Positions 2,756 to 64,000 of a stretch of DNA of 64,000 nucleotides are shown piece after piece. The notes under the pieces are model-generated. The model saw only the letters and a program-made list of their open reading frames with translations. It made no database searches and was not told the DNA's origin. Numbering within the stretch: the first letter of the stretch is position 1; each line of letters opens with the position of its first letter. This DNA is from Monodelphis domestica (lineage: Eukaryota > Chordata > Mammalia > Didelphimorphia > Didelphidae): positions 34,671,351-34,735,350 of the forward strand of contig NC_077230.1 of the NCBI RefSeq assembly GCF_027887165.1, in the 5' to 3' direction. A program made the translations under genes and the position numbers.

Positions 2756-2800
2756 GGTTTGATTGCCAGTTGTATGAAACTGCTACCTTTTCTTCCACAG

Positions 2801-2888
2801 TGACCTGAAATTTGTTATTGGGGCACTGAAAATATTAATAGAAGAAGATCAGGGATGTAGAAAAAACATCCAAGCTATCTTTGAGCAG
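2801..2888 (+). CDS. Exon A1 (coiled-coil segment)
   Basis: An 88-nt exon between a cttttcttccacag acceptor and a gtaaga donor. It starts with one base completing a split codon and ends on a codon boundary. It encodes a Lys/Glu-rich stretch ([10 protein letters not shown]...) comparable to part of the neurabin coiled coil. An identical 88-nt exon lies at 61082-61169, and a diverged, 9-nt longer counterpart at 24491-24587. Confidence 0.8.
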
Positions 2889-20465: not shown

Positions 20466-21757
20466 TGGACTTTAATATAAAGAGGGAAACAATAAGTAAA
20501 TTAGGTGAACACAGAATAGTATACCTGGTAGACCTTTTGGAAGGGAAAGATTTTAAAACCAAGCAGGACATAGAAAGAGTCACAAAATATAAAATAAATA
20601 ATTTTGTCTACATCAAATTAAAAAGTTTTTGTACAAAGAAAACCAATGTAACTAAAATCAGAAGGGTAACAACAAACTGGGAAACAATCTTCATAAAAAC
20701 TCTGACAAAGGTTTAATTACTCAAATTTACAAAGAGCTAAATCAATTGTACAAAAACCCAAGCCATTCTCCAATTGATGAATGGGCAAGGGACATGAACA
20801 GGCAGTTCTCAGCCAAAGAAATCAAAACTATTAATAAGCACATGAAAAAGTGTTCTACATCTCTTATAATCAGAGAGATGCAAATCAAAACAACTCTGAG
20901 GTATCACGTCACACCTAGCTGATTGGCTAACAAAACAGCTATGAAAAATAGTGAATGCTGGAGTGGATGTGGCAAAGTAGGTACACAAATTCATTGCTGG
21001 TGGAGTTGAGAATTAATGCAACCATTCTGGAGGGCAATTTGGAACTATGCCCAAAGGGCGATAAAAGAATGTCTGCCCTGTGATCCAGCCATAGCACTAC
21101 TGGGCTTGTACCCCAAAGAGATAATAAGGAAAAAGACTTGTACAAGAATATTCATAGCTGCACTCTTTGTGGTGGCCAAAAATTGGAAAATGAAGGGATG
21201 CCCTTCAATTGGGGAATGGCTGAACAAATTGTGGTATATGTTGGTGATGGAATACTATTGTGCTAAAAGGAATAATAAAGTGGAGGAATTCCATAGAGAC
21301 TGGAACAACCTCCAGGAAGTGATGCAGAAGGAAAGGAGCAGAACCAGGAGAACATTGTACACAGAGACTGATACATTGTGGTACAATCGAAGGTAATGGA
21401 CTTCTCCATTAGTGGAGATGCAATGTCCCTGAACAATCTGCAGGGATCTAAAAAACACTATCCACAAGCAGAAGATAAACTGTGGGTGTAAAAATACCGA
21501 TGAAAAGCAACTGCTTGGCTACAGGGGTGGAGCGGATATGACTGAGGAGAGACTCTAAATGAACACTCTAATGCAAATACCAACCACATGGAAATTGGTT
21601 TGAATCAAGAACACATGTGATACCCAGTGGAATTGCGTGTTGGCTGTGGGAGAGGTGGTGGGAGTGGGGGAGGGAAGAAAAGAAAATGATCTTTGTTTCC
21701 AATGAATAATGTTTGGAAATGACCAAATAAAAATTAAAAAATAAATAAAAATAAAAC
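20466..21757 (+). mobile_element. 5'-truncated LINE-1, sense
   Basis: ORF2 C-terminal third and 3' UTR, ending in an A-rich tail. It contains a 126-codon open frame at 21016-21396 that matches the ORF2 C-terminus of the young LINE-1 ([21 protein letters not shown]). Confidence 0.92.
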
Positions 21758-24490: not shown

Positions 24491-24587
24491 AGAACTGGAA
24501 TTAAAAAATGAAGAGATGGAATTGAAAAGAATAATAGAAGAAGAAGGTCAGAAATATAAAAAAGACCTCAAGGAAATTGATGAAAGT
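24491..24587 (+). CDS. Exon B1 (coiled-coil segment)
   Basis: A 97-nt exon with a tttttcttctgcag acceptor and gtgaga donor, in the same phase as A1. It encodes a strongly helical stretch ([20 protein letters not shown]), closer to a neurabin-type coiled coil than A1 is. An antisense LINE-1 fragment runs to within about 20-25 bp of the acceptor. A hairpin of TA repeats starts 9 bp after the exon. Confidence 0.65.
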
Positions 24588-39500: not shown

Positions 39501-42245
39501 AAAAAACCCTCTCTTCCTCTCCTTCTTATAGGAGTTTTCTTCCCCTCCCCTTCCCATGTGAATCTTTGTGTGAGAACGATTATTCTATTTGGTCTTTCTT
39601 TACCCCCTATTTATAAATTACATTTTCCCCACATATTAGTATACATAGATTGATATAAATGTAGTCCTTATAGAAGAGAGTTTGAGTAAAAGAAAATAAC
39701 ATTTTTCCCCTTTCCTTAATATTTACCTTTTCAGGTATTCCTTGCTCTTTGATTTTCGGTATCAAACTTTCCACAGAGCTCTGGTCTTTTCTTTGCAAAA
39801 AGTTGGAAGTCTTCTATTTTGTTGAATGCCCATACTTTCCCTTGGAAGTATATAGTCAGTTTTGCTGGGTAGCTGATTCTTGGTTGGAGACCCAGCTCTC
39901 TTGCCTTTCTGAAGATCATGCTCCATGCCTTACGATCATTCAGAGTAGAACTTGCAAGGTCTTGTGTGACCCTGATTGGCATTCCTTTATATCTAAATTG
40001 TCTTTTTCTGGCTTCCTGTAGGATTTTTTCTTTTGTTTGATAGCTTTGGAATTTGGCAATTACATTCCTGGGAGTTGTCTTTTGGGGGTTTAGTGTAGAA
40101 GGTGTTCTGTGAGCTCTGTCAGTGGCTGTATTGCCCCCTTGTTCTAGAATCTCTGGGCAATTTTCTTTGATTATATCTTGTATCACCATGTCCAGTTTGG
40201 TGTTTATTTCTGGCTTTTCTGGGAGTCCAATTATTCTTAAATTTTCTCTTCTCCCTCTATTTTCCAGATCTATCACCTTGTCGGTGAGATATTTTATGTT
40301 CTCTTCTAATTTCTTGGTGTTTTGGCTTTGCTTTATTAGTTCTTGCTTTAAAGCCTGGTTTTCTTTTACAGTTTGGTCAAACTGGTTTTGTAGATGCATG
40401 AATTTCTTTTGCATTATTTCCCACTTTTCCTCCCAGAGGGCTTCCATCTTTTTGGTCATTTCTGATTCAAATTCTTCATGGGTTTGTGGAGAGTTTCTAT
40501 TTCCTTTGGAAGATTTTAGAGAATTTTCTTGTATATCTTCTTCTATCTGCTCTGTATTTTGTATTTTGGCTCCATAGAATGTGTCTAAAGTCGCCCCTTT
40601 CTTCTTATTTTTCTTGGTATTTTGGGGCTTCTGTGCTTCTGTGGAGTTTGCTGCCGTCTCTGAATGTGGAGGATTAGCTTTTCTTATCTCTGTCTGGTTA
40701 TCAGAGGCTTTAGTCCCGGACAGATTGTCCCTTCTATGAGCTTTCCCTGAGTTAAACTGAATATGCCTCACTGGAACTGGAATGGAAGGGTAGGACCACG
40801 AGGCCACACTCTCCCCCTGGCTCGCTTTCCGGAAGTTGCCTTCAGAATCGCTGGCTGTGAGGCTGTTTCCTCGGCCTGCGGGGGGATGGGCTGCAGCTAA
40901 CCCAAGCTCTGAGGGCAAGGACTTTCACTGAGACTTGGATAGCAGGATCCAGCCCGTGAGGCTGTTTTGCCCGCCCTGAGGGTTGCTGTTGTTTCGACCA
41001 GCTCTCTGCAGCGGAAGCCCCAGGCAGTAACTTTCACCCGGACTCGGGTAGAAGGCCCTGAGGGTTGTGGTTCGGAGGACTCTGCTCTCTGAGCCCGGCC
41101 AGGCTGCGGCTTCCGGGAGCCTTGGACTCTGCGCTCCTACCCCTGAGGTCCGAGTGATCTCGGGTTCTGGCTTTTGAGGGGAGCCATACCTTTTGAACCG
41201 GGTCCAGGTGTAGGAGGAGGGTTCCCAGGGTCTGTGCTGTTGATCGTTTTGAATTTCGGCGCCTTAGGAGCTTTTGGTTTGAGATCGGTTGGGAAGGGTT
41301 TTCCGGAGATCTGAGCTTTAGCTTTCTCTAAGCCGCCATCTATTGAGCCATCATTCTTTTTTTTTTTAAGAATTCTATGTATTAACAAACACTGGAAAGC
41401 AGAAAAGGAATATTTTAATTTTTGACCAGGCAGATTAACTTCACTGAAACAGATTAAAAAACAGTAATCATGGGAAATGGCAAGCTTTCATTTTATTTAT
41501 AGTAAATACAATATCAATATTTTAAGCTTTAAATATCAAATATTGGTTAGAATAGCATCTTTGTCATTGACTAGAGGTACTAGAGGAATATGATAATTGA
41601 CTGCACAAAACCCTGAAATATATTCTACTTGGATTCATTTGCCACATAAGAAAATATTAGGAGGATTTTTTAAAATGTAGCTTCTTTCACAATTATTTCT
41701 AAAATGTTCCTAATGTATTCTACTTAAGTACCTCTAAGCTGTAAATTTCTGATATTCTGGGTTCTTCAATTTGAAGACAAATGAAAATTATGCAATTAAA
41801 AATAATAAAAAAAAATGTATAGTGTTTCAAATGCAACCATCTCTGGGCTCCCAACCAGTTAAGCAAATAAAAATTAATAGATGAGAAATGTAGCTTCAAG
41901 TATAATTATGATACCAATAAGAAGGACCAACACTCTTCTTAGAAAAGATAGTTTTTATGTGAATTCCTTAATGCATTTTAGAGTTCTACAATGTAATTTT
42001 TTTACTTCATTCAGAGATATTGAATATTTTCCTAATGTTGTAAAATCTGAGTTCTTCAGAAATGATACTTAATTTAATGTTCAGGCTCATTATGTAAAGA
42101 GTTATAAAATATATTCATTTGAATGCATGCATGTAAAGTAACAGCTTTCATTTTTTTTCCAAAGTGCATTGGAATCACTAAGAAGAGAGATCGCAAGAAA
42201 ATCCTTAAGGGAATTAAGAAAATTCAACAGACAGAAAAAAATTAA
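24491..42245 (+). CDS. Neurabin-like gene, module B: diverged paralogue of module A (exons B1-B6)
   Basis: Six exons colinear with A1-A6: 24491-24587, 25701-25833, 33179-33281, 34082-34178, 34394-34531 (or from 34356) and 42165-42245. With the 34394 acceptor they form one open frame of about 215 residues: a charged helix, a linker, the KKHDKQVKN block and a SAM domain. All donors and acceptors are GT/AG, and coding blocks are better conserved than the introns. No PDZ-type exon is seen between A6 and B1. B may be an alternative 3' end of the upstream gene (phases allow C5 or its equivalent to join B1), a separate gene with an unseen start, or a decaying copy. The open frames argue against simple decay, but there is no direct evidence of transcription. 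Confidence 0.65.
24596..24642. repeat. TA-rich inverted repeat after exon B1
   Basis: acagttca(TA)n ... (TA)n tgaactgt forms a stem of about 20 bp starting 9 bp after the exon. Confidence 0.75.
25701..25833 (+). CDS. Exon B2 (short acidic linker)
   Basis: A 133-nt exon with an acaaatttcag acceptor and gtaaga donor, ending one base into a codon as A2 does. It encodes [15 protein letters not shown], then QPEETVKED and [13 protein letters not shown]. It lacks 26 in-frame residues relative to A2. Confidence 0.68.
26040..30000 (-). mobile_element. Old, long LINE-1, antisense, in intron B2-B3
   Basis: From 3' UTR (26040-26340) through a deleted ORF2 (26340-28290), ORF1 coiled-coil/RRM region (28290-28900) and a second open ORF1-like stretch (29153-29563, 136 codons; [15 protein letters not shown]) to a 5' region near 30000. 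The ORF1 N-terminus differs from the young LINE-1 at 39.7-40.9 kb, so this is a different, older subfamily. Its 3' end is shared with module A at 5870. Confidence 0.78.
30090..30185. repeat. TA/CA-rich simple repeat
   Basis: Runs of acatatacacatatgtac and related units. Confidence 0.85.
30250..30360 (+). mobile_element. LINE-2 3' tail
   Basis: ctccttgatagcagagattg ... tgtatccttggtgctgtacc ... tgattgttgactt follows the known LINE-2 tail order. Confidence 0.6.
30361..31975. other. Intron B2-B3, nothing recognised
   Basis: Single-copy AT-rich DNA with a short catata simple repeat at ~31495-31530. No exon with matching phase was found. Confidence 0.45.
31976..33178 (+). other. Intron stretch conserved between modules A and B
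   Basis: Homologous to ~7350-8557 (e.g. tggcaaataagttagagatg against tggcaaatagagaaggtttc). It includes a MIR3-like patch at 32890-33010. Confidence 0.6.
33179..33281 (+). CDS. Exon B3
   Basis: A 103-nt exon with a catattcttag acceptor and gtaaga donor and phases identical to A3. It encodes [28 protein letters not shown] and FSWF. It is three codons shorter than A3. Confidence 0.7.
34082..34178 (+). CDS. Exon B4
   Basis: A 97-nt exon with a gatgattctag acceptor and gtaaat donor, the same length and phase as A4. It encodes [20 protein letters not shown] and EETDLK. Confidence 0.72.
34394..34531 (+). CDS. Exon B5 (SAM core, probable shifted acceptor)
   Basis: The acceptor matching A5 is at 34355/34356, but from there the frame closes before the SAM region, because the segment up to the conserved Trp codon is 53 nt against 57 in A5. 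A second AG at 34392-34393, after a pyrimidine-rich run (ctctgcttcttttataccccaaag), opens a phase-0 exon of exactly 46 codons. It reads [20 protein letters not shown] and continues to [11 protein letters not shown], with a gtaagc donor. Use of this acceptor would restore the frame at the cost of the V-L-D-D linker. RNA evidence is needed to choose between a rescued and a dead exon. Confidence 0.6.
34795..34970 (-). mobile_element. CORE-SINE, antisense
   Basis: Antisense opossum SINE (gcaatgtgaggcaagtgact ... gaaaccaggacctcttttct). Its head end was used as the LINE-1 target at 34955. Confidence 0.75.
35349..39191 (-). pseudogene. LINE-1 ORF2 (endonuclease/reverse transcriptase), disrupted
   Basis: The full span of about 1281 codons is present. 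The endonuclease part (39191-38691) shows [15 protein letters not shown] and VGDLNQPLS, and ends at an in-frame TAA at 38688-38690. The RT part resumes in the same frame (38657-36627) with [16 protein letters not shown] and FADDMMVYL. Near 36.64-36.56 kb a one-base shift in an A run and a compensating shift take ~20 codons out of frame. The C-terminal third (36347-35349) is open again. GDLN replaces the usual GDFN. So one nonsense and one local double frameshift break an otherwise young ORF2. Confidence 0.92.
39731..40918 (-). CDS. LINE-1 ORF1 (RNA-binding chaperone protein)
   Basis: An open frame of 395 codons with no ATG at the upstream end (the first in-frame codons after the preceding stop are TTG CCC TCA). 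It has an acidic/polar N-terminal part, a coiled coil (about residues 150-220; [23 protein letters not shown]), the RRM region ([13 protein letters not shown]) and the C-terminal domain ([17 protein letters not shown]). Its length is similar to other mammalian ORF1p. The protein binds LINE-1 RNA as a trimer. Lack of an initiating ATG suggests the copy is not fully competent. Confidence 0.85.
   Translation of the reverse strand: MPSELGLAAAHPPAGRGNSLTASDSEGNFRKASQGESVASWSYPSIPVPVRHIQFNSGKAHRRDNLSGTKASDNQTEIRKANPPHSETAANSTEAQKPQNTKKNKKKGATLDTFYGAKIQNTEQIEEDIQENSLKSSKGNRNSPQTHEEFESEMTKKMEALWEEKWEIMQKKFMHLQNQFDQTVKENQALKQELIKQSQNTKKLEENIKYLTDKVIDLENRGRRENLRIIGLPEKPEINTKLDMVIQDIIKENCPEILEQGGNTATDRAHRTPSTLNPQKTTPRNVIAKFQSYQTKEKILQEARKRQFRYKGMPIRVTQDLASSTLNDRKAWSMIFRKARELGLQPRISYPAKLTIYFQGKVWAFNKIEDFQLFAKKRPELCGKFDTENQRARNT
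42165..42245 (+). CDS. Exon B6 (SAM last helix, stop codon)
   Basis: Acceptor catttttttttccaaag followed by 26 codons and TAA. It encodes [20 protein letters not shown] and a six-residue tail. It completes the SAM begun in B5. The I-G-I-T loop is closer to a canonical SAM than the E-I-E-V of A6. Confidence 0.72.
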   Translation, partial: CIGITKKRDRKKILKGIKKIQQTEKN

Positions 42246-46129: not shown

Positions 46130-47645
46130 TGAATATAAAGATTATATCCAATTAATATCAATTATTAATTAATGATCATCAATTAGTAAATGTCACTAAT
46201 CAATAATTGATTAATTAATGATCATCAATGTGTAATAATGAAAAATTAATAATTGGTTAATATAAATTATTTATTATAAACCACTAAATTATTGAATTAT
46301 TTTATTTTTATTTATATACATTTAATTAATTTATTTATTTTTAATAAATTTTATTTTTATATATTTATATATTATTTATTAAATTGTTTATTTTAATTTA
46401 TTTTAATATAATTTATTAATTCATTTAATTTAATTTTTAAAGTAAATTTAATTCAATTATTCATTAAAATAATAAATACAATATAATATTATTTATTAAT
46501 TAGTGACAGCCATTAATTGATGACCATTAATTAATAACTGGCAATGATTACTATTTTTAACCATCATTAATATTAAACAATTATTGATTAATCAGCATTG
46601 ATTAATAATTAATCTTAATCAATTGATCATTAATGATTATTAATGAATCTATCCATGATCATTGATTACTAATTATATTAAGTGAATTTAATGGATGGTC
46701 ATTAATTAATAATTGATCATGATTATTATTCATAATAATTATTAAGTGATATTAAGTAATTATTGATTAACGAGGATTGACATTAATTATTTTATAGTCA
46801 TTATTATTAATTACATCAAAAAATTATTGATTTATTTCATGAATTAATATTAACCAATTATTATTTGATAGTGTTTAATAATTAATATTAACAGATTATT
46901 GATGATCATCAATTTATCCTTATTAAATAATTGTTTAATATTAAATAATAATGATTGTGGAAAATAATAATTAATAATGATCATCAATTAGTATATGTCC
47001 CTAATTAATAATTGATTAATATTAATTATTGATTATTAAATTATTGTATTTTAGAGTATATTTAATTGATTTATTTATTTTTAAATACATTTTCTTTTTA
47101 CATATGTATATATAAATATATTTTATACATTTTTAAATTTAATATAATTTATTTATTTATTTATTTAATTTAACTTTTAAATCAATTTATATAAAGTATT
47201 TATTAACTTATTAAAATAGTAAAGAATTAATAATTAAATATTGATGATATTATTACTAATTAATAACAATTGCTAATTAATTATTATTTATTAATAATCT
47301 TTTAGTATTTATTATTAATTAATTAACAATAATTAATGATTGATTCTTAATAATTATTATAAGTAATCAATATAAATTATTAATTAATGGTTGAGAATTA
47401 ATAGTCAATTAATAACAATTATTAATTAATAACAATTATTAATGATAATCAATCAATAATTGATTGTGTAATAATTAAATTATTATAATATAATGTGTTA
47501 TGTTGTATAAATATAATAATATGATAGGATAGGATAGGATAGGATATAATCATTATATTATAAATTTTGATTAATTGAAAATAATAATTTATTAATGATC
47601 ATTAATAATTAGAATTCATTAATTAATATTAATATTTAATTAACA
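46130..47645. repeat. 1.5-kb extremely AT-rich ATTAAT-type block
   Basis: Degenerate tandem patterns of attaattaat, gatcatcaatta and taataattgattaat, nearly devoid of G and C. A short (GGATA)n run lies at ~47526-47545. It resembles a scaffold-attachment or unwinding element by composition only. Confidence 0.85.
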
Positions 47646-48039: not shown

Positions 48040-48158
48040 TAAAGATCGAATATTTTTTTGTTCAAGAAGCTTGTTGATAGCTTTTAATCTTCTCTGTGAA
48101 AAAATGATGCAAAGAAGAGTCCAGAACCTCGATTTATTTTCTTGTCAAATAGACAAAG
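48040..48158 (+). CDS. Exon C1 (candidate PP1-docking motif and pre-PDZ linker)
   Basis: A 119-nt exon with a tatttttttcaag acceptor and gtaagc donor. It starts with one base of a split codon, then KDRIFFCSRSLLIAF, CEKMMQRRVQNLDLF and SCQIDK. RIFF fits the RVxF PP1-docking pattern and LIAF sits where spinophilin/neurabin have their second hydrophobic contact. RRVQNLDLF aligns with the family's KRVE-LELF just before the PDZ. About 15 residues of the family's intervening acidic linker are missing. A second possible acceptor at 48066/48067 would remove RIFF. Two in-frame Met codons at 48104 and 48107 could be starts if no upstream coding exon exists. Confidence 0.65.
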
Positions 48159-50011
48159 GTAAGCTTTAACTATAAAATTGCTTATTTCATACATGTATGC
48201 CATTTTTCATCAATTTTATTTTTATTAATTTGTTTTTCTCATCAATAAACATCAAATCTAGAAAATATTAAATTATTAGGAATAATTCCCAAATGAAGAT
48301 TAAGGAGTGTAAGTTTAACTGATAAATATTTTTGATATCATAACTTTTAAAATAATTTCAGAAAGGTGAGTTATAGCAATAAGGCACTATTTCCATTGAT
48401 ATTCTTGTCCTTGTTTAGTGAAAAATAATATGATAGAAGATGATCTAACCATACCAGATACCAAAGTGTATTATTATAAAGTACTTATCTTCAAACTAAT
48501 CTATTATTGATGAAGAAAGAGTAGTGGATCCGTGGAATAGAGTAGGTACACACAATATGCACAGTAGAAATGACTTTAGTAATGTTGTGTTTCTTACATG
48601 CAAAAATCCATATGTTAGGGTCAAGAACTCACTGGGTCAAAAACTGCTGAGAAAACCAGAAAGCATTTTGGCAGAAACTAGATGTAGACCAATGCCGCAC
48701 ATCATGTATCAAGATAAGGTGAAAGTGGCATTCGATTTATGCATTCAGGGTAATGCCAGATTTAAATTAGGGGAAAAAGAATTATCAAATAAAGGACAGA
48801 GAACATTATAGGAGGTGCAATGGATCATTTTCATTACCTTTAAAAGTTTTCCACACAAAACCAATATAGCTAAGACTAGAGGGAAAGAAGAAAAATGGGG
48901 AAAAATTTAAAGATCTGATTAAGGCCTCATTTCTCAAAGATATAGAGCACTGGATCAACTTTATAAAGAATACAGGCTGTTCCCCAATTCATAGATCCTA
49001 AAATTATATGAATAATCAGTTTTCAGATGAAGAAATAAAAACTGTCTCTAGCCACATAAAAAAGCACTAAATCACTATGAAGAATACAAATTTAAACAAC
49101 TCTTACTTTTCATGCCTATCAAATTTTCTTAACGAGACAGGAAAGGAAAATGAAAAATGTTGGAGGTGATGGGGGAATATTTGAGACACTAAGGTACAGA
49201 TGGTGGAATTGTGAACTGATTCATCTATTCTAGAGAAGAATGTGGACATATGATCAAGGAGCTATACAATTGTGCATATTCTTTGACTTGGCAATATCAC
49301 GACTAAGACAGTATCCCAAAGAGATTAGAAATTTTTAAAAGATGAAACAAAAATACCTATATGTACAAAATAATTTATGGCACTTCTTTTTTGTGTTGAA
49401 GAACTTAAAATTTCAGGGATAACATTCAATTGTGAAATGGCTGAAAAATTTGTGGTATGTGATTGCAACAATATTATTGTGCTACATGAAATGATGATTA
49501 AGATGATTTCAAAAAACCTGGAACACTTGTATGAACTGATGCAAAATGAAGGGAGCAGAAGCAGAACAATGGGTGCATGAACAGCAATGCTATGCAATGA
49601 TCAACTGTAAATGACTTTGCTATGCCCAGAAATACAAAGATTGAAAGACAGTTCTGAAGAACTGAAAAATGTTATCCACTTACAGTGGAAAAGGTGATGG
49701 AATCTAAATGCAGAGCAAAACATATTTTTTTACTTTATTTTCCTTTTTTCCTGGTATGTTTTATTTCTCAACATGATGAATAAGGAAGGAAATATTTTTT
49801 ACATGACTGCATATGTATAATCTTATCAAATTGCTTACCTTTTTAATGAGGTTGGAGACCAGGGTGAGCAGGAAAGAATTTGGAACTTAAAATAGATTTT
49901 ATATGTCCTTAGAAAAAATTTTAATCATTAAAAATATTTTAATGTGCTTATATGCTGAAAGGTAGAAAGTTCAGCAAAATCATTGGTCTAGGGCAGACTG
50001 TAAACAGAGTC

Positions 50012-50059
<48 letters not shown>

Positions 50060-53000
50060 ATATATATATTGCTAATTATTAAGGAAAAGATACCGGTAAA
50101 GTATAAGTGGATGGCTTATAATTCCATTTCAAAGCTAGAGTGGCCAGGCCAACTGTACTGGGAGGAAATTTTATTCTTACTGTTGCTTCAGATGTTTTAG
50201 GCTTTCATTATTATTACTATTATTATTTTTGTATTTATAGGTGACAACGAACTGGGGCTTTGTACTTGTATCTTCTTTGATCCAGCAGATGAGGATGGAA
50301 AGGAACCAGGGGTTTTTATAACTGAAATTATTGAAGGAGGTGCAGTTCACAAACTTGGATGGTGAGTTTGGTTTTGTAATTTTATAAGAATTGACTTTGT
50401 AGGGAGGATTTAACATCATTCTAAAAAGGGTTAATATTGTAAACATGGAAAGTGACTACACAAATAAAATCTCTGAAAAATACAGAAATATCAACTTTAA
50501 AAATATTGTCATGACCAAGCTAGTAAGGAAATGGAATTGGCTTGGAAACAAAGATTCTATAATTCCACTCCAACTAGGTCTGTAAACTATGACTTTATTC
50601 TTGATCATTGAGAAGGTCTTTAATAATTGCCATAATGAGCCCATTGTAAATATGTGCCCAGCTATTTCCAAATCAGGTCAAATTAACAAGTATTTATAAA
50701 TCTATACCATTCCAGAACCTGTGCTCTCCATGAAGGGATATAAAGAAAGTGGGAAAATAGTTCTTGATTTGGAGAAATGAAAAACTGAATTGACTAGGCA
50801 ACAAACAAATTACTATTGTGTGCAGAAAAGATCTATACTAAATAAATGTGAGAAAATCTGGGTGTGGGGGATACTTTGGTTGTATTAGAAAAAATGGTAT
50901 CCATGAGACACTGGCAACTATCTTCAGAGATTATTGAAATTTGACTATACAATAAAATAATTCCTGAATTGAGAGAGGGCTTCCTAGATATAGGAATGTA
51001 GGAATATACATTTAAAATATTACTATAAACTGCCCAAAGTGAATCCTTGAGAAAGGAAAAAAATAAGAAATGCAAATAGGTTGCCAAATCATAACTTTAA
51101 CCTTGTAAGAATTTACTATGCAACTGAGGTCAAATGGTACCCTCTATGTCCTTGCTCATGATGTAATTTTGGACTTTAAAATGGAATTCTTCCTGAGATG
51201 ACACTCTGTTACATAGAACTGAAAGCAAAAAACGCCATCAGGCTTTCTGTTTCAAAGCCTGAGGCTCATTACTTCTTCATCCCCAACTCACTTAGCCCAG
51301 ATGGTTTTAGAATTTTTTCCTGCTTCCTAGATTGTAACAGAATTGATTTCTTTAGCTGCCCATCCTGAATATCCCAAATAAATGGTGGAAATTTTCTCCT
51401 CTTAACCTCCCAAAGTTGTTTTCTTTTCCTCAGTTTCTATGATGACATTTATCTGTTTATTATCACCCAAGGTCTCTACAATAAAAATATCAACTAGAAG
51501 TTTCCGTCTGAATTATCCTCTCCTTACTCAGTCTTCAGTCAGTGGGGGCATTGTCTGATACCTCAGAAGAATCATTTGTTTTAGTTTCTGCAGATCCTAT
51601 TGACTTTCTGAAGAATATTAAAATTGAAACAATACTCTGATAATTGTTTGGAGGAGGGCATCTGTGTTTGTGGATGATTTCTCTTGGATCCTTCTCACTG
51701 TGTTTTCCAAGATCTGCCAAAGTCCCATCCTTTTTCAATCTCATTTCATTATTGAGACTTAGCCAGCTGGAAAGGCTTGGAGTACAGACCCAGTTATGAA
51801 CACTAATCATCCTTGAAGCCCACTTAAAAAAAATCCAGGGAAGAATCCCCAGACAGGCTGCAGGGTAATGAAATTATTGAGACACACCAGCCCTCTAAGT
51901 CTTCTGATTAATTTGTAGAGAAGTGGTGACTGAAAAATTTGTAAGTGGCAACCATTATAGTAATGGTATGATGAGTCATTGAAGTCTATCTCTTAAATTA
52001 GTACCATATCTTCTAATCATACACATGCATTGGACTTTTAGGTCATAAAAATCTTCAATGTAATTTTAATTACTATGCAATTCTATTTTTCAGTATCCGT
52101 GTATTTGACCAGATTATTAAAATAGGTGACATCAATCTAATTGGATTGGATGAAGCAGAAATCATCTCAACTTTTAAAAAAATGGACGATTCTCCTTTCC
52201 AGTAAGTAAATTTTCCCACATTTCTTTAAGATGCAGAGATTGCTAGATCATTGTTTTTGATTTGGAAATTTCTTTAGTAATGTGTTCAAACAGAAAAATT
52301 GGGGAGAAAGAAAGCCCAATTAACATGTTTAAATAATTTCTCTTTTTGACTTCTTTTGCTAGGAAATGACCCTCTTTTTTTCTGTTCAGCAGTTCACAAG
52401 ACATTTTAGGACCCATTTGCACCTTCCTTTCTGAATACTCTATCACATCTCAAGCAAACCCTTAATTTTCGTTTGCATTTATTTTTAGTTAATGAATTTT
52501 TATTTTCTTGGCAAATAATGCTCCTTGAACCTGAAGAGGTTTTTTTGTTTTGTTTTGTTTTGTTTTGTTTTGTTTTTGTAAGAATGACAGCTTAGCTGAA
52601 TTTCCCCATTCTGCTTTTTGCATGGCTATGTCTTAATCCAAAGTACATAAATTAAATGTGGATATTTTGTACCTAGGATTGAAATTGGCCGCGAACCACC
52701 TGAAGTGAAGTCAGAACTTATCGAACTCCTTGAGTTGTCAGAGGAAAGGAAGAAATATTTTATGGATTCGCTCATAGTACAGGTATTATGTGAACCAAAT
52801 AAAAAAGTGCAGAAACGCAAAATTCTTTCTTTTTTATCATAACAATATTAAAATAAAATTTTTGTTCTTTAAAACGTTTCCTTTCCTACTCTTCAGTAAC
52901 GTCATCTTAATTTATTACATACTTTTTTATTGTTGCTCTTTTATGCAATTTTATCAATGTCTCTGAGATTTCCATTCTAATCTTCTCTGATGCACTCCAA

Positions 53001-54661
53001 CCTTCACCACTGAATTATCATTTGTAGTATAGAGAATGAATTAAGCAAAACTGAACAATAAATACAGCAACTGAATCTGATAGTTTTTGCTCCTTTCTGA
53101 ACAACGGAGATATATACATGTGTATATGTGTATGTACATTTTTATATCTCTAGCTTTTGTCCCAGTCTAAGATTTTCCATTACAATTAGTCAGAGGATGG
53201 CAATCTTTTAATGCTGCTTTAATTTACCTTAGTTTTAAAGAGCCTTCTGTTTCTGATTACTTTACATTATTTAATATGGGTTTTTTAATGTCTTGTAGAA
53301 TTCTATTGTTAATTTCAAAAACTTAATAATATCTCATTATATAATATATCACAGCATTTGTTCAGGTTTTCCCAAATTAACGGACACTTTGTATTCAGAC
53401 AAAGAATGTGTAAGTGTACACATATTCCCTTGATTTCCTGCCTTTGATGACTTTGGGGTTTCACTTCTATTCTAGTTGCATTGATTTTGTTCATGTTAAA
53501 TCTTTCTCAGTAGTGCAAAATTTCTATTTTTTCTTTTATTATGATCACAAACCCCCTAGTTTTTTACCATCAATATGCCTCACAAATATTGGTCTAAGAG
53601 GTCTTATTCCTGTTATTTTTCTAATTTTGAATGCTGTATGGATATTGGTTGATATTAAGGTTGTATATGCAACTTGAATACATTATGGTAAATTATATAG
53701 CCCTTTCCTATTCAAACCTTAATTTGTATCACATGATTTCCAGTTTTTCTCAGGCCTTCCAAAATACAGAATCCTTCCTCTCTCATTTTTGTTTTTGGGT
53801 TTTTGAACCCCTGTAATGCTGAGTTAATTATCTTCTGGGACTTCCTCATGGTAGAATATTTTATGAACTCTTAATTATTGTCAAGTAATCCTGAGTAATT
53901 TTATTAATTTTGAAGGTTCAGTTTGAGGACCTGTTAATTTTAGACCTCTTTTATTATTCTCGTTTTTAACATTTCCATTAAGATTCCTTTTCACAACAAT
54001 CTCTGACCAACAATCTTTTTTCTTATGTCTTTCTGTATCCTATCTCTAAGGCTTTCCCCAAAATGCTGGTCTACCAATCTGTAAGCCCCTGGAGGTGAAG
54101 GAATGTTTTATCTTTATATCCCCAGGACAACACACGGGCTTGCACTTTTTAGATGCTTAAGAAATTATGATTCAATTAGTTGCTCATGTTGTTATGCTGA
54201 TGCAGAAGCAGGCTCTAGCTTTTTATTCTGTGCTATTTAGCTAGATGTTTTGGCAAACCCTTTAAAATGTTTTACTATAATTTTGAAATGCCAATCCTTC
54301 CTCTAATACTGATAATGTCTTTGGAAGAAAGATCAAAGAATATATTTAATCTTTCAAAGTGTGTATATGGGTATATTGGTATATATTTCATTTTGCAAAA
54401 AGTATAAAAGTATTTACTACTGCCTCCTTAAAACCTCTTTCCTATCCAATTATGAAATCTTTAAACATTAGCACATTAGGAGAGTGGATTTTGTTGGTTT
54501 ATTTTAAGCATGTTCTTGAGATTTCTTAGCTTTAGGCCTATATTGTAATTACACTTTCTAAACATTTTCTCCATTTAAAGGAAAAAATTGGAGATATCAC
54601 TATTGTGAGAGGACAAGCAAGTATTTGTAGAAGTCCAAGAGTACCATGGTACTGGATGGCC

Positions 54662-54698
<37 letters not shown>

Positions 54699-57600
54699 TA
54701 TAGGTATAAAGATATATATGTAAGCTTTTATTGAGTATGTAAACTAGTGGTTTTTTTAGACAAAACTTAGTGAAAGATTAATAATAATATAAAAATATGC
54801 TTTTGCCTCTAAATTCCATTTACTGGGAAGATTTCCATATTGGAGACTCAATTTAAAAAATGTATATATTCAGTGGGTTTTTTGGATAATATTTTCCTGA
54901 TGAGGAATAGCCTCATCATTTCTGGCTCATAAATATATAGAATGAAATAATATAATGCATTAAAATAAGTAAATATCAGGAATAGAAGAAATCTGGAAAC
55001 ATCTTGATAAACTTTGATGTAAAGCAAATAGAACAGATGAAAACAAAAACAAAAAGAATGTTTTTTTAAACTTTACCTTCTGTCCTATAATTGAAGCTAA
55101 GTGTCAGTTCCAAAGCATAAGAGCAGTAAGAGCTAGGCATTGGGGTCAAAAGACCAGCCCACGGTCACATAGCAAAGAAGAACCTGAGGCCAGATTTGAA
55201 TGCAGGACCTCCCATCTCCAGAATCTCTCTATACACTCAGCCAATTAGCTGTTCATGAGAATATATTTTTTGTGAATTAAGACAAAAAAAGATCTAGAGA
55301 GAGCAATGGATAAGCAAAAAAAATGTTAGGCAGAAGAATAGATTTAAAAATGTTATTTTAGAGTGTTTAACTGACTCCCTATTATGTAAATTCATGTTCA
55401 ACATAAATAGCACAAAAAGGCTAGAGTCTCCTAAGCATGATGATTGTTCCTTAGTTCCTAAAAGTGTTGAATCAAGCATGAAACTCCCTAGGTTTCTTCA
55501 AATGCACAATATATTTTAGACTCTTCATACATCTAGTGATAATGTCCAGTTCTGATTGTATCTCTCCAGGACTTCTTAAATATTGACACTGTTTTAGTGA
55601 AAAATTCAGAGTTTTTTGCACTCATTGCTTTCTAGCATTATTGAACATATAGAAGGATGAATTTTTTCAAATATCTATGGTCACTCCAAGATAGATGCAA
55701 AGTTAAGACAGTGTAGTTTCCTAGAGTCACAACTTATTGTCATATTGTTGTTCAGTTGTATAATTCTTCCTAGGACACTCTTCAGAGTTTTCTTGGCAAA
55801 AATACTAGAGTGGTTTGCTATTTCCTTCTCTAGCTCATTTAACAGGTGAGGAAACTGAGGCAAACATGATTAAGTGACTTGCCTAGTGTTACACAGTTAA
55901 TAAGTGTTTGATTTGATGACTGAATTTTAACTTAAAAGATGAGACTTTCCTTACTCTAGGCTTGACACATCCAGTGTGCCACCTACCTATCCTTGCTGCC
56001 ATTAATATTTACATTTTGAGTTGGATTACCTAGAGAAAAGAGTAAAATATAACTCAGCTGTGTGCCTGTGATATCAAATAGGCATAGGAATTTCCCAAAG
56101 AAGTATAACAGTGACAGTTGTAAAGTTTAAAATTAGCGGTTGGATGATGATTATATGAAATTATGTGATTGCCAGTACTTATTACAACTTGAGTCAGAAT
56201 TTATTTACAAATAGAGAGGAAACAATAAAGAAGAGAAATGTAAGAGGGATGGAGGAGTTATCTATCCTATCATTCTAAATGCTTTTCTCTGGGTCTGCTT
56301 AATCCAGGAAGAGATTAATTAGCTCTAACCAGGAACCTTGCAGCCTCCTCCAAGATGGAAGTTAGGCTCTCTAAAATCTAGGAGAGGGATCAGCCTTTTA
56401 CTCACCCAAGGGAATAATCCTAGAGTCACAGTCCAATTAGAAGCCTAGTTCCAAACCCATGATCCAAGCAAGTCTCCAGCAAAGCTCCCTTGAAGACTAT
56501 CTAAGACTATCTCCAGAAGACAATCTCTTCAGACTATCTTCTCAAAGACAATCACTCTGCCCTAAAGAAGTTCGGGGTTTGCTTTTTATGGTGACTTCTT
56601 GTCCCCTCCCCTCTTCTCAGGGGTCAGTCACAGTTTCCAAATTGTCTAGCCCTGCCCATGGGGCAGTATGGGTAGGATCAACTTTTCACCTTCTGAAGGT
56701 TAAATTCTCATCAAAAAGCTTCACAGATTCCTGGCTGACTGAGGTGTGAATTCTCTAAGTACCTTGCTAGATTCTCATCTAGTACTAAGTATGGTGTTTA
56801 ATCTTTTGTTGGTTCAATTTAAAAGGAGACAAAGGAGAGTTAATCCGCTTTTTCCATCTAGTGAAGGTACTAAATAGGGGTACTTAATATTGTTAACTCA
56901 GGATAGACAGTAAAGAATTCCCTTTACACAGGATACTGGGGTCTAGAGTATTGGGATGATGCTGTGTCCTCTCCCTTTCCATTAAGGTCTTTCCTGTTTT
57001 CGACCTAAGCATGTAATGACTACTTTAGTCTTGGGGAGACCAGACCACTTGAAGGAAAGATCAGGCATTTCTCTCAGTCTTTGCTTCCTTTTGCCTCTAC
57101 CAGGTAGCTCCAAGGAAAATTGAACAGAAAAATTTGGTCAAATAAGGAAGTGCAAAAGTACTTGATCTACTCTGTGAGACAGCTATGTATTTCCTCTTCA
57201 TAAAACATAGGCTTAATAAACACAGGGTCTGAATGCAGTTCAGGCTCTCTGGACCTCTGAAATTCAGAATGTTGATTTTATGCAGAACACAATAACCTCA
57301 AGACTGATGTTGGATCATTTATGTAGGACAGGCAGTTAGAGGTTCAAGTTTGCTGAATTGAGCCCTAAAGATCTTGTGTCCACATGGAAAAAGCTGCCAG
57401 ACTCTTAGAGTGGGGAGGACAGCCCATCCTCCTTCTGTTCAGGAGAGAATTATTTGCCACATGCCCTAGAGTCATGATGGTAAACCTATGGCACATGTGC
57501 CAAAGATGGCACAGAGAGACCTCTCTGTGGACACACATATGCCTTCCATGGCAGAGTTAATTACTAGAAAGGTAGAAGAACTTGGGGTAGGGGGACTGCT

Positions 57601-60600
57601 CCCTTCCCCTCTCTCCACTGTGCATCCTTACCCCTCAGTACTCACTCCCATTCCTGAGTGGAGTGCTCAGGCTACTCTCCTCTCTTTCTCCCTCCCCTGT
57701 CTGAGTAAGGGCAGAGGACACTTGGTTGCTGGGTGGCATGGTCTCTAAAAGGTTCTAAAAGGTTTGCCATCACTATCCTAGAGCCTTTTTGGTGAACCTA
57801 TAGCAGGTGTGCTGGAGGGGCTGCTCCCTTCCCCTCTCCATGTGCGCAAGGACAATTCTTATATCACCTGCCCCTCAGCCTAGCAGTCAAATGGGAACAT
57901 TTCCTCCTTCCCCTGTCTGGAGTAAAGTCAGTTGTTCTTACATGCATCATAAGGGTTTCAGTTTGGTCACTTGCTCTCTAAAAGTTTTGCCATCACTGCC
58001 CTGGAGAATCAAAGGAGGAGATGCGATAACACCCCAAACACACATACCTCCTCCTGTCACAGGGCTGGGACAGCTCTGAGCATGTTCCATCTCCATTATC
58101 ATGACATGATATTATCATGACAGGCAGATAGACAGGCAGACATAGTGCAAAATTCATTATTCACATTTCTTCTAAATGCAAGTTTAGGCCTTTCTTGAAC
58201 CTCTAATATGAGAAAAATCACAATTCAAGTGAGCTGTGATTACTTTTGTTACAGTGATTGGGAGAATCATGTGGCATAATTTTGGAGTTGTGTGTTTTTA
58301 TTTTATCTTTAGAGCTCATTAAATAATATTTGAGTAAGTAGAGATATAGGCTAGATGTATAATTTCATTGAAATAGGGAATACTCATGTGTATAGTTAGA
58401 AAATCTTGAAACCCTACTACATTACCCAGAATACTTTTCCCTTTGTGCACATTTGAGTCAATTCACATAACTGTTTATAAGTTCTGTAGCTCCTCTCAAT
58501 TGCTCTCTTCTTTCATGACTGGTCCTGGGTATCGGTAGTTCTTTTATTTTAGTTATTAATTAATAAAAGTTTAAAAATAAAATTTATAGAATATTAATTT
58601 TAATCTTTACATTTTGGTTTACCACAAAGAGAATTTTCAAATATTTTTTTTAAGATAGAATAGATAAATTTTTTCAAGCATGCTTTTCTGCCCGCCCACC
58701 TGCTTTCCCCACCATCTGCTTGAACCAGCTCTCCTCCCACTACTGCTGCTGCCACCCACCACCAGATCTTGGGAGTGGTTTCTCCTCCCCCTGCATGCTC
58801 TTGGGAAGAGTGCTCAGCTGCAGTCTCCCACTGCTATTTCTGATTCAAGTTTCTGCACAGAGGGTGAGATTCCCCAATTTTTGGCCAGTCTTTTCCCCAC
58901 TCCAGGTGGGTTTTTGAGCCTGTGCTAGCCATTTTTCAGTGAGGAAAAGTGACACCATGCTATTCAGCCCCACCCCCTTCTAGTTTATAAGCTGAATTTC
59001 TTAAACTGACCATTGGCACCCGGCTTGCAACTCAGGATTTTTTTCACAGGAAAGGGGTCCCCTCTGCTGTTTTTATTTTTTGAGGGCACAACACAAATCA
59101 ATGGATTTTAGATTTTATTTTTCTCCTTCCTACCCCAAACATCGAGGACTAATCTTTCTTTCATATGAAAATATGCTATTGTTCTCCCTTGAAGTTTTGC
59201 CCTTCTTTGAGTTTACTCTTTAAATAAAATCCATTCAGTCTTCCCTTTTTTTTTTTTGGAGGAAAAATGCTTTTACAAAGCATGCTAGGAACTCTCACAG
59301 AACAGTTTGAATTGCTTGATCTCTAACTAGTGCATATTAGTTCTTGTTTTTTTTTTTACTAGCAGTTTGTATTTGCACTGCATATTTTCCATTTTGTTTG
59401 CTTCTCAAGAATATGCAACAGGCTAGGGGGCAGCTGGGTAGCTCAGTGGATTGCAAGCCAGCCCTAGAGACGGGAGGTCCTAGGTTCAAATCTGGCCTCA
59501 GACACTTCCCAGATGTGTGACCATGGGCAAGTCACTTGACCCCCATTGCCTAGCCCTTACCACTCTTCTGCCTTGGAGCCAATACTCAGTATTGACTCCA
59601 AGAAGGAAGGTAAGGGTTTAAAAAAAAAAAGAATATGCAACAGGCTAGACTGCTTAAATTAGAGACCAAACTGAAATATTCTGACAAAGTGTTATGGGGT
59701 TCAGATGTGTACCCCTGGGGTTCAGGAAGGATACCTTTGGCAAGAATGCAAGACTCCAAAACTTAGCTTAAAAACAAAAAGAGAAATTTATTAGTTTAGG
59801 AGGCAATGTTGAGAATGGCCAGGAGGATAGCAAGGTGGAGCAGCAAGATGGGGAGCAGTTCCTTAGGAGGACAGCATGAATGGAAAGGCTGCTCCCCTGA
59901 GGACAGTATATATGGAAAAGCTGTCCCCCCAGACGACATCAGTTCTGGGGATTTTATACTCTTTACAACAGATGCTATGTCATGGTGTGGACATGACCTA
60001 GAGTGTTAATAATCACTCAGGCATTTGGTGGGGTTGAGGTGGTCATCTGACTTGGGTCTGCCTGGAGGCATAAAGATTCCTTAACAAAAAAATATCTTGA
60101 GATATAGCCTGATAGGATCTAGGTGTAGCCTGGAGGTGTGTCTCTCTGTCCAAAATAGTTTGCCTGAGTTTCTGGGGGTACAGTGCCCATGTCAAAAGTT
60201 TTGATATTCTTAAATATTCTCAACACACAGAGTAGAGAATTCTGCCCATTGCTTCTATCAGAAATTTCCGAGTTCTGACAAATGAAGTGCAAATAGTTAA
60301 TAAATAGTGCGGAGGGGAATGAACTTTAAAAAGAGATCTGGAAGTTTATTGTTTCCTAACTACTTTAATTTATTAAACTCCATGAGAGTAAAAGAAGTCT
60401 ATTGGAATTGGAGAAAAGGATTTTTGACGTCCCTGCCTATGTCTGTTACGCTTATTTTATTTGCTGATTGCTTGTGTTAAGATTTAATTTTTTTTAAGTT
60501 CATATGTTAATCTAATCAATATCTTTCTGATATACTGAATCATTTCAAGCTAATGTTTTTGCCTATTAGATATATTCTATTATATTGATTTTTGTATTTG

Positions 60601-63395
60601 TACCTTTCCCCTCTGACTGTACTGAATAACATCATTATGAAAGCCCATAAACACCTTTTTCAGTGGCAATATCATAACTCATTAGGGGTGTGCTGCATTT
60701 GTCACATAGATAATGATGGATGGACTTCATCAAAACTGGTTACAACTTGTATACAACCTTTAGAGAATTTAATGAGCTAAGAATTTCAATTGCAATTTTA
60801 AGAGGTCTACAGAAATTACTTTAGATATCTAGGAGATTTCTGGAATGATATTTAAAATATATATGCATACATATATTTTAAAAAATGTTGAACTAAAAGG
60901 TAGAGAACCAAATAGATGTTCCTACCTAGCCTAGAAAGGCTAAGTGACTTGCCCAAGTTAATACAACTAATTAGTGGAAACTAACAACTAGGTTCTAGAA
61001 CTAGAACTTGAGTCCAAATCTCTTTAATTCCAAGATGGTTTGATTGCCAGTTGTATGAAACCGCTACCTTTTCTTCTACAGTGACCTGAAATTTGTTATT
61101 GGGGCACTGAAAATATTAATAGAAGAAGATCAGGGATGTAGAAAAAACATCCAAGCTATCTTTGAGCAGGTAAGACAGCACAGTTCCTCCCCATTAATCA
61201 AGTTTTATTGAATGTTAGTTGTGTTCACAGTGATAAAAGTGGTGGAAAGCAAAGCAGTCAGTGAGAATGGTGCCCATAATAATGCATGAAATAAATGCTT
61301 CCTATTTCATTCATCCATTCTTTTGATCAGTCCAAACAAAACTTTTCAATCTTACTAAAACTCTTCTTGGCCTAAGAGGACTGCTTTATGAAAGGTGAAT
61401 TGACCAAAACTCCCATATCACTACTCTCTGCCTACTTCTACTTATGACTCTTTAGAAAATCCAGTATGGAAATCATTTGGGAACCCCAGCCTACTACTAC
61501 TACTAATCCATGAATTGTGTCTACTTGATCAAGAGAAAGGATCATCGGCTGGGGTATCCTTCTTCCTTGCTTCCCTTACTCCCTTGCAGCTATTAACTAC
61601 TCTTAGGTCTTAAGATGTGAATCAGTAGCTTTCTTCCTTCTGAAATGAAGAAGACCCACCAGGCTTTTTTCATTATTATTTTCTCTGTGAATGTGCCTCT
61701 GAAGTCTGCTAGAATGTAGGCTTTACAATCAATTTCCCCTACTTTTATGCTATCATTGTAACTACTAATTGAAGTACCTCTGGATGTGTGCAAAATGCTG
61801 CTAAGCTCTGGAGTTATAAATAGAAAAAATGAAACATTTCCTGATCTTGAGACACTCTTACTCGATACTCTAAGTGGAAAGTACAACATTTAAAATAAGG
61901 TTCAGCTGAAGCACAAGATGGAATGCTTCAGAAGTCCTGGGGTCTCAGTGGTAGAATGGATGGAATGGATAGCAAGAGCCATTTGGCAATGATTTCACAA
62001 AGATTAGTTAGACTGGTTCTGCCATCTATCACATCAGTAAATTCTTTTTGTATTTGAGGATTAAACCCAGTGTCTCGGTCACATATTATCAAGGCTTTCC
62101 TGTTGTTATTGGATAAAGTCTAAACCCAGTACCTTCCATATTCTGACACCAGAGGGTTCCATACTTAATTCCCAGAGTACCATGACATAAATTTTTTATT
62201 ATATATATATATATATATATGCATATATCTATATCTATATCTTTGTAGTCATATAAATCTTATATACCCAGAGCTTAGCTGAGGACGAGAAGACCAGACA
62301 TGGAAGAAGCTCTTAGTAGTGAATATCATTTTTCCTTTTTTCTATACACATGTAAATCTGTGTGTCAGTATATACATATATATGCACATAAATGCATGCA
62401 CACATTTATTTATATATGTGTATGTGTGTATGTGTCGATATCTATACCTCTATCTAAGGCCAGGTTAGTTACTCATCAGACCTGCCCTAACATTCTTCTA
62501 GTTTGCAAAAGGGCTTGTCACTGTAATTTCTCAGCTATTATGGTATTTCCACTGACTTTGTTTTTGAACATCTCTTGGAGTCCATTTTACTAAATTATAC
62601 TCCTCCTAGAAGCAGAAACTGTCTTTCCCCCTGTATATACAGAACTATGCAGGAAGAGAGGCTTCATTTTGTAGTGTTAGGAAGTGATATGTATTGAAGT
62701 GGTCCCCCTGATGTCCATCCTGGATGTCTGAAGCTCACCAGGTCAGTAACATCTTACTGCTTTTGGCAGCTTCCTGCAACTAAATGGCAGTGAAGGTGTC
62801 ACCTTGCCTTGAAAAACACAATTCTTAGCTGGGAGAGCTTTTAAGCTTTGGATTCTATCCCTAACCTCATTCCTATCTACATGCCTATCTCTTTCCCTCT
62901 TCCCATTCCCATCCATGTCCCCATCTCAGTTCCCAAACCTATCCCTGTCTCTAATCTCATGTAAATCTCTAGTCCTATCCTGATTAGTTTTACTCAATAG
63001 CTACTAGTCATGGAATTTGTGCATATGTTTTTGAATGTAATAGATCTTAAGGGGTCATTTGAGAATAAAGAGGTCAGATAAGTGGCTAGCAGGAATAAAT
63101 GAGATGGTTGTGACTGTTGGAGAGGAACAGGATTGAATAGCGTGTAATTAATAGATTTATGTTGGTTCATTTGGTAAATTTCAGGCTAACATTTTTCAAG
63201 ACAAATATAAAGACATGAACACATACAAAGTGAATATGGAACAGAAACCTGATGAATCAAATAAAGAAGGCACATTTTTACCATTGGCCCCAGAAGAAGA
63301 ATTATTACTAGAACAATTTAAAATAAAACCTAAAGAGATAAAAAATGAAGATTTATCACCAGGGCAATTATTAGCCCAAGGGGATTTCAATTCAG
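48040..63395 (+). CDS. Neurabin-like gene copy 2: PP1-motif/PDZ module C plus exons A'1-A'2 (continues beyond the window)
   Basis: Exons 48040-48158, 50241-50361, 52094-52201, 52677-52782 and 54581-54663 (C1-C5) chain in phase and then into A'1 (61082-61169) and A'2 (63185-63395). The encoded order is a candidate PP1-docking motif RIFF followed by LIAF, then RRVQNLDLF, a PDZ domain (ELGLCT loop, EPGVFITEIIEGGAVHKLG, IRVFDQIIKIGDINLIGL), a GREPPEVKSEL tail and helical segments. In neurabin and spinophilin the same order occurs: K-I-[HK]-F, then RVE-LELF, PDZ, GRE-P..SE, coiled coil, with SAM only in neurabin-1. The predicted protein would be a scaffold that holds PP1 and one or more PDZ ligands. 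The N-terminal actin-binding region was not found upstream in the window. Its exon may be missing, or lie outside what I could recognise. Confidence 0.75.
48430..49930 (+). mobile_element. Old LINE-1, 3' part, sense, in intron C1-C2
   Basis: ORF2 C-terminal sequence (the 95-codon open frame at 48524-48811 begins like LINE-1 DPWNRVG) and 3' region (gagacactaaggtacagatg, atttgtggtatgtgattgca). It is heavily diverged. Confidence 0.75.
50014..50070. repeat. (TA)n microsatellite
   Basis: About 28 TA units with one interruption, ~170 bp before exon C2. Confidence 0.97.
50241..50361 (+). CDS. Exon C2 (PDZ, first half)
   Basis: A 121-nt exon with a tttttgtatttatag acceptor and gtgagt donor. It encodes DNELGLCTCIFFDPADEDGK and EPGVFITEIIEGGAVHKLG. 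ELGL is the peptide-carboxylate loop and GVFITEIIEGGAV is the strand-loop typical of PDZ domains. Confidence 0.85.
50362..52093 (+). other. Intron C2-C3
   Basis: No repeat confidently recognised. A 91-codon minus-strand open frame (51535-51810) shows no family I know. It is probably chance or an old pseudogene piece. Confidence 0.4.
52094..52201 (+). CDS. Exon C3 (PDZ, second half)
   Basis: A 108-nt exon with a ctatttttcag acceptor and gtaagt donor. It encodes IRVFDQIIKIGDINLIGLDE and AEIISTFKKMDD. R-V-F-D-Q-I-I-K-I-G corresponds to the PDZ strand that in neurabin reads V-N-D-Q-I-V-E-V-D-G. Confidence 0.87.
52535..52577. repeat. (TTTTG)n microsatellite
   Basis: Seven to eight units in intron C3-C4. 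Confidence 0.93.
52677..52782 (+). CDS. Exon C4 (PDZ end and GRE-P tail)
   Basis: A 106-nt exon with a tttgtacctag acceptor and gtatta donor. It encodes IEIGREPPEVKSELIELLEL and SEERKKYFMDS. The GRE-P.....SE..L..L pattern with a following E-R/K-rich helix is characteristic of neurabin/spinophilin just after the PDZ. Confidence 0.85.
52783..54580 (+). other. Intron C4-C5
   Basis: Mostly unrecognised AT-rich DNA with a LINE-2 3' tail in sense at 54070-54180 (gtaagcccctggaggtgaag ... tatccccaggacaacacacg). Confidence 0.5.
54581..54663 (+). CDS. Exon C5
   Basis: An 83-nt exon with a tctccatttaaag acceptor and gtatat donor. It encodes EKIGDITIVRGQ, SICRSPRVPWYWMA and ends two bases into a codon. 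A1, A'1 and B1 all begin with one base, so C5 can join any of them. The donor runs straight into a TA microsatellite, which makes its strength dependent on repeat length. YWMA may correspond to the YW-EA motif in the neurabin coiled coil (weak). Confidence 0.65.
54664..54720. repeat. TA microsatellite abutting the exon C5 donor
   Basis: gtatatatata... begins with the GT of the splice donor. Confidence 0.95.
55068..55250 (-). mobile_element. CORE-SINE, antisense, degenerate
   Basis: aaactttaccttctgtccta ... agagcagtaagagctaggca ... aggccagatttgaatgcagg. Confidence 0.8.
55745..55990 (+). mobile_element. Marsupial/therian CORE-SINE, sense
   Basis: gttttcttggcaaaaatact, gtggtttgctatttccttct, caggtgaggaaactgaggca and gattaagtgacttgccta in the canonical order, then a degenerate tail. 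Confidence 0.8.
56164..56930 (-). mobile_element. LTR-like element (endogenous retrovirus)
   Basis: About 767 bp, with TGTG...CACA ends, a minus-strand AATAAA-like signal near the left end and LTR-like composition. No internal genes lie next to it. The ends are tentative and no target duplication was confirmed. It is a fossil. Confidence 0.4.
56931..57463. other. Unclassified interval
   Basis: No exon or repeat recognised; moderately GC-rich. Confidence 0.35.
57472..57775. mobile_element. hAT-type nonautonomous DNA transposon (OposCharlie-like), copy 1
   Basis: Terminal inverted repeats (catgatggtaaacct at the left, ggtttgccatcacta at the right) with the CTATGGCACATGTGCC subterminal motif. 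Flanked by 8-bp duplications ccctagag/tcctagag (one mismatch). Too short to encode a transposase. Confidence 0.75.
57784..57997. mobile_element. hAT-type element, copy 2, directly adjoining
   Basis: Starts cctttttggtgaacctatag, ends ttttgccatcact, then ccctggag, a third near-copy of the same 8-bp target. Confidence 0.65.
59427..59628 (+). mobile_element. CORE-SINE, duplicate copy of 1151-1352
   Basis: Same insertion and same target duplications as the first copy, showing it was carried by the segmental duplication. Confidence 0.9.
59690..60225 (-). mobile_element. Solo LTR-like element, duplicate copy of 1414-1949
   Basis: Same ends and orientation as the first copy; a fossil carried by the segmental duplication. 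Confidence 0.55.
60920..61035 (+). repeat. MIR/CORE-SINE fragment, duplicate copy
   Basis: Matches 2640-2755. Confidence 0.55.
61082..61169 (+). CDS. Exon A'1 (recent copy of A1)
   Basis: Identical over all 88 nt to 2801-2888, with an acceptor that differs at one base (tcttctacag) and the same gtaaga donor. Confidence 0.8.
63185..63395 (+). CDS. Exon A'2 (recent copy of A2)
   Basis: 211 nt, one synonymous difference from 4894-5104, with identical splice sites. The remaining exons of this copy would lie beyond the window end. Confidence 0.82.
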
Positions 63396-64000
63396 GTAAG
63401 ACATATATCCTTGCTCAAAACATTTGACCCTAAAGTTTTCTGATAGAAAAGAGAAATTTGCAACAAATGTTTCCATCACTCACCGAATCTCTGGTCTCTA
63501 TTCCTTTTCCCTTCATATCTCTAATAATGAGAATGCTAGCTGCTTTATAAGGCTTTCTCAACTATTGGTGATCCCTCTATTGGTGATTGAACTATATGGG
63601 ACCTTGGAAATATTCTACTATAACATTTTAATTGCTATAGAAATCTATCCTATATGTATGTCAGAATGTCATTTAGCTTCTGCCTCAAAATATGCAGTGA
63701 TAGGAAACTCATTTTCTCAACATCCAGGCCACACTATTGCTAAATTACTTAAGCTTTTAGAAAAGATTTCAGTACAATTTTTTTTGCTCAGGCTTTTTTT
63801 TATAATTTAGTCCTTTTCCCTTCTTTTGAAATAATACAGAAAAAGATCTTGTTCCTCTTTCCCTATAACTATCCATTTGACCTATAAAATCAACTTATTT
63901 TCCACCTAAGACTTTTTTTTTAATCTCTATGATCATGTTTAGCCTGAAGACAATCTTTATATGATTTCTTATTACATCGTTTGGACATGGTTTTGTTTAG

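Follow-up and report, generated by a model that had tools for sequence, protein, structure and literature searches.

The 64,000-nucleotide stretch of the genome of the grey short-tailed opossum, Monodelphis domestica, analysed here (contig NC_077230.1, positions 34,671,351 to 34,735,350 of the forward strand; referred to as the window) probably belongs to an array of tandemly repeated genes with introns whose ancestor was a neurabin-type gene, i.e. one encoding a PDZ domain, a coil and a SAM domain. Positions 1-5735 and 58278-64000, both listed without strand, match each other with 97.4% identity over 5758 columns and define a 58.28-kb tandem unit. One gene, copy A, ends inside the window (exons 6-11, 2801-13933) and its exons 1-5 would fall before the window start, while the next, copy C, starts inside it (exons 1-7, 48104-63395). 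An older paralog, gene B, is found at 24491-42245. The tandem repeat bears out the local amplification of a neurabin-like gene that an initial annotation of this DNA had proposed.

All exons described in the following lie on the plus strand. Exon 1 of copy C (48104-48158) holds the start codon and the motif RRVQNLDLF and ends one base into a codon at a GT donor. Among six related database proteins, here P0001 to P0006, P0003 and P0006 are the two that contain this exon, and both models begin at RRVQ. The PDZ domain is divided between exon 2 (50241-50361, first half, 85% identity to P0006) and exon 3 (52094-52201, second half, missing from the P0003 and P0006 models), both with AG/GT borders. 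Exon 4 (52677-52782) encodes GREPP and a helical segment with 94% and 97% identity to P0001 and P0002, respectively, and exon 5 (54581-54663) the EKIGDITIVRGQ... segment, which clearly matches P0001 and P0002 and more weakly P0003 (27%) and P0006 (43%). The protein sequence of exon 6 (61082-61169), a further helical segment, is identical to that of exon 6 of copy A (2801-2888, placed by splice borders and phase), and exon 7 (63185-63395) shows one synonymous difference to its counterpart in copy A (4894-5104), which is identical to P0001 at 71 of 71 residues in the tblastn match. Copy A continues with exons 8 (8558-8669) and 9 (9472-9568), both matching P0001 and P0002, the latter ending in ...IDQE ahead of V-L-D-D. 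Exon 10 (10818-10997) encodes VLDD and the larger part of the SAM domain, with the neurabin-1 SAM as best match, and exon 11 (13832-13933), supported by its splice border and open frame, the SAM end, a short tail and the stop codon. A minisatellite with a 42-bp unit, present about 33 times (13991-15341), begins 57 bases past this stop codon, and an AT-rich region in which numerous tandem repeats overlap (46160-47638) is located 5' of exon 1 of copy C.

When joined, the 11 exons have compatible phases, AG acceptors and GT donors and yield an open protein of 420 amino acids, which is a composite of exons 1-7 from copy C and the last four exons from the neighbouring tandem copy A. A 29-residue segment that is additionally present in P0002 (LOC130453618), and is also encoded at 8332-8420 between exons 7 and 8 of copy A, was left out of it. 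The composite comprises RRVQNLDLF, the PDZ domain, GREPP, a helical and low-complexity middle, E-V-L-D-D, the SAM domain and a short tail. Pfam detects PDZ (PF00595) with 26.1 bits (cut-off 23.2) and SAM with 41.1 bits (cut-off 23), while a Pfam search of ten single open frames of the window found nothing relevant, the PDZ being split over exons. Neurabin-1 carries an RVxxLxLF motif, a PDZ domain, GRExP, a helical region and a SAM domain near the C terminus, and the same elements follow each other in the same order here. The structure searches and Pfam place RVxxLxLF ahead of and GRExP behind the PDZ, and the SAM search and Pfam place a neurabin-1 type SAM after the PDZ in this chain, as in the neurabin family.

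The exon chain that the initial annotation had drawn through 48040-63395 is therefore real, but this interval contains exons 1-7 only. These seven phase-matched exons do encode the RRVQNLDLF, PDZ, GREPP and helical or low-complexity stretches assigned to it; E-V-L-D-D and the SAM domain exist as well, but are found in exons 9 to 11 of the preceding copy A, and exon 11 also accounts for the short C-terminal tail that had been described. The RVxF-like motif counted as the start of the chain (RIFF, 48047-48058) is not confirmed, being located 5' of the ATG (48104) where the P0003 and P0006 models start; a further exon may exist upstream of those described here. The match to the neurabin-1 chain 3hvq_C starts at chain residue 72, and we take the part of this chain that docks protein phosphatase 1 (PP1) to precede this residue. 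An F-actin-binding region is found in neither the P0003 nor the P0006 model, the upstream DNA not having been searched with an actin-binding profile.

Gene B resembles copy A in introns as well as exons and comprises exons 6-11 (24491-24587, 25701-25833, 33179-33281, 34082-34178, 34394-34531 and 42165-42245), with a frame of 216 codons that is open to the stop and matches the 207-residue models P0004 and P0005. Searches of the window for PDZ exons belonging to gene B, using those of copy C and P0006 as queries, found none. The gene thus encodes a short form without a PDZ in the window, yet it matches the same family. Compared to copy A, a net 4 nt are lost from the SAM exon of gene B. On this account gene B was considered as a pseudogene, which was rejected because a downstream acceptor at 34394 keeps the frame, as P0004 and P0005 imply.

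The six proteins come from searches with the sequence, which gave three relatives (E≤0.01, 7218 candidates scored), and with a family profile, which gave six (E≤10, scoring limited to the 7994 candidates with the most words in common). All six carry the species name Monodelphis domestica and are listed as uncharacterized (LOC103102196, LOC130453618, LOC103097891, LOC103104116, LOC103099266 and LOC103098397), and the word-filtered candidates of this database included no relative bearing the name of a different species. They are cluster representatives for 42 member sequences (2+29+2+1+7+1), which is not a gene count because isoforms and between-source duplicates may be included, and all six are assigned to a contig of 454,668,073 bases that we take as one chromosome. 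The proteins belong to the same family as the window genes and match them exon by exon, P0001, P0002, P0003 and P0006 being built from subsets of the window exons. They differ from the window chain in that P0001 and P0002, the A-type models, begin within the PDZ and exon 3 is missing from P0003 and P0006, so that a complete PDZ is seen in the DNA of copy C and in none of the six representatives; their names carry no link to neurabin. No paper on this opossum family was found among the literature matches listed, and none of the six LOC names occurred in the literature searched.

For the SAM domain, neurabin-1 is the closest solved relative by a clear distance. Compared with solved structures, the SAM of copy A matches neurabin-1 (2gle) first, with 41.2 bits (E 1.4e-9), the runner-up reaching 35.5 bits summed over two SAMs and 23.9 for its best single SAM. 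The same structure ranks first for gene B (50.6 bits, E 1.2e-12; next entry 37.1, summed over three SAMs) and for P0003 (36.5 bits; next entry 25.3). The SAM identity to neurabin-1 is low, with 23 of 68 residues in A, 21 in B and 20 in P0003, and the SAM domains of A and B share 33 of 68 residues with each other. SAMD14 is not among the matches listed for the SAM of A (best 60 of 69) or B (best 60 of 81). The SAMD14 SAM is given as 57% identical to that of neurabin-1 in PMC7242717.

With exons 1-4 as query, neurabin-1 scores 44.1 bits and neurabin-2 43.3 bits, compared with 31.6 bits for DLG2, the best single-PDZ chain outside the neurabins; five DLG4 entries rank above (51-57 bits) by summing several PDZs. 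A shorter query of PDZ and flanks gives 43-45 bits for DLG4 (summed), 34.5 for neurabin-1 and 27.3 for DLG2. As judged from sequence, the PDZ with its flanks thus favours the neurabins, PPP1R9A and PPP1R9B not being separable by it.

The locus is best explained, and we consider this likely, by a lineage-specific, reduced, diverged and amplified neurabin family that would still be coding under weak constraint. The reduced, fast-evolving neurabin descendant suggested in the initial annotation is supported by the SAM matches of A and B to 2gle and by the PDZ-with-flanks scores. Several results weigh against this explanation. Without its front flank the PDZ scores 29.1 bits for neurabin-1 compared to 29.7 for DLG2, 29.2 for PAR3 and 29.3 for a two-PDZ scribble chain, and the 1wg6 PDZ protein, within 29.2-29.8 bits, also lies above neurabin-1; since the PDZ alone scores several families alike, it counts for neurabin only with its flanks. 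Such scores, together with the DLG4 entries heading the PDZ lists through summed PDZs, are what membership in another PDZ or SAM family (DLG, Shank, liprin, PAR3) with a chance likeness to neurabins could produce. This we regard as very improbable: the SAM prefers neurabin-1 in three of three cases tested, and the order of motif, PDZ, helical region and SAM together with the aligned pre-PDZ flank indicates neurabins. Further adverse points are the start of the A-type database models inside the PDZ and the Pfam count over five family members, with SAM in 5/5 and PDZ in 1/5. The structure model of P0001 (AlphaFold, with five relatives) is uninformative, with a mean predicted local distance difference test (pLDDT) score of 32, also with regard to the coiled coil that neurabins have between PDZ and SAM. 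When a concatenate of two family proteins was searched against proteins of neurabin size, none reached E≤0.01 among the 7990 candidates sharing most words that were scored. The frame of gene B escapes the loss in its SAM exon only via the downstream acceptor. Finally, A and B differ at 180 of 603 exon sites compared to 617 of 2449 flanking sites (Fisher p 0.023; four alignable blocks with exons 7-11, exon 6 left out, counts summed from rounded fractions), i.e. the exons change at least as fast as the flanks, which fits little constraint.

An array that is mostly decaying, with frames that are pseudogene remnants joined by software, would agree with this divergence, with the gene B PDZ exons not found in the window, with annotated A-type models lacking most of the PDZ and with exon 9, where dN (nonsynonymous divergence) is 0.24 and dS (synonymous divergence) 0.19. 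We consider such decay unlikely in view of the remaining comparisons. The frames of A and B are open over 263 and 216 codons, while in simulations without selection (3000 runs per distance; substitutions only, no indels) 1.4%, 0.1% and 0.03% of runs were stop-free at distances of 0.1, 0.16 and 0.32, respectively. Over 212 codons the NG86 method gives a dN of 0.35 and a dS of 0.58 between A and B, and the interval of their ratio (0.61, bootstrap 0.41-0.93) lies under 1; single exons give mixed values, dN and dS being 0.29 and 0.91 in the SAM exon alone and 0.41 and 1.02 in the last exon. Between the two recent copies, A and C, 1 of 299 exon sites is different compared to 92 of 5401 other sites, which argues in the same direction, though with a p of 0.094. 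The lengths of exons 6-9 differ between A and B by 9, 78, 9 and 0 nt, all multiples of three, compared to 9 of 49 gaps in the flanking DNA; this does not hold for exon 10, with a gap of 4 nt that is bypassed via the alternative acceptor, or for exon 11, with a gap of 5 nt. On these comparisons the family is best described as still coding, weakly constrained and fast-changing.

The gene keeps its introns and is thus not a retrocopy. As parent, both PPP1R9A and, alternatively, PPP1R9B/SAMD14 or an extra paralog would be compatible with the data. Additional PPP1R9A-like genes occur in fish. A further neurabin paralog of ancient origin, stemming from the early vertebrate duplications, lost in most mammals but kept and amplified here, would account for a SAM identity to neurabin-1 of just 20-23 in 68 residues, for the retained introns and for the near-equal scores of the flanked PDZ with neurabin-1 and neurabin-2. 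However, the exact-word-sharing candidates that were scored yielded no relative under another species' name, and fast evolution could yield the same distance, so that we give this origin, rather than a copy of PPP1R9A, a low probability. PPP1R9A itself is reported in marsupials in PMC3820666.

With respect to known proteins, the predicted product resembles neurabin-1 (PPP1R9A) in its best SAM match and its match of PDZ with flanks. It differs in the SAM identity of at most 34%, in the N-terminal actin- and PP1-binding half that is not seen, in its tandem repetition and in its length of 420 residues compared to about 1100 in neurabin-1. The likeness to spinophilin (neurabin-2, PPP1R9B) consists in the PDZ with flanks. 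Neither PPP1R9B nor SAMD14 alone is known to have both a PDZ and a SAM domain, while Pfam places the two in one A-type gene here; the SAMD14 layout of a SAM without a PDZ does not describe this gene, which encodes both.

Neurabin is known as a scaffold protein of nerve cells, and the usual view of neurabins is that of a small number of conserved scaffolds linked to the brain. In the ancestor of the opossum genes, the N-terminal half that binds actin and PP1 may have been lost or not carried along. The remaining protein could act as an adaptor that joins partners via its SAM and in some copies also its PDZ, without recruiting PP1, and short SAM-only copies of the B type could compete with longer ones. 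The copies may have diversified rapidly under weak constraint, as families of reproduction or immunity do, the step to reproduction or immunity being a guess. It is conceivable, if rather doubtful, that a synaptic-type scaffold freed from PP1 and actin was amplified to dozens of copies on a single chromosome of the opossum and separated into PDZ-SAM and SAM-only forms that diversify near-neutrally while coding. If true, this would amount to an adaptor family that is new and evolves rapidly, its members possibly competing in reproduction or immunity with one another or with neurabin. Natural mutants for the roles of PDZ and SAM minus actin and PP1 would be available in a lineage with many such reduced and fast-changing copies, and at least six opossum entries that are now uncharacterized would obtain a name and an origin that can be tested.

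RNA and tRNA searches of the window gave no result. A short element at 59410-59625, which begins like a tRNA and is A-rich at its end, resembles marsupial short interspersed elements. An inverted pair of 1.29 kb (20468-21753 and 34995-36278) is 87% identical, with more relatives at 11471-12639, and its open frames resemble pieces of LINE-1 (long interspersed element 1).

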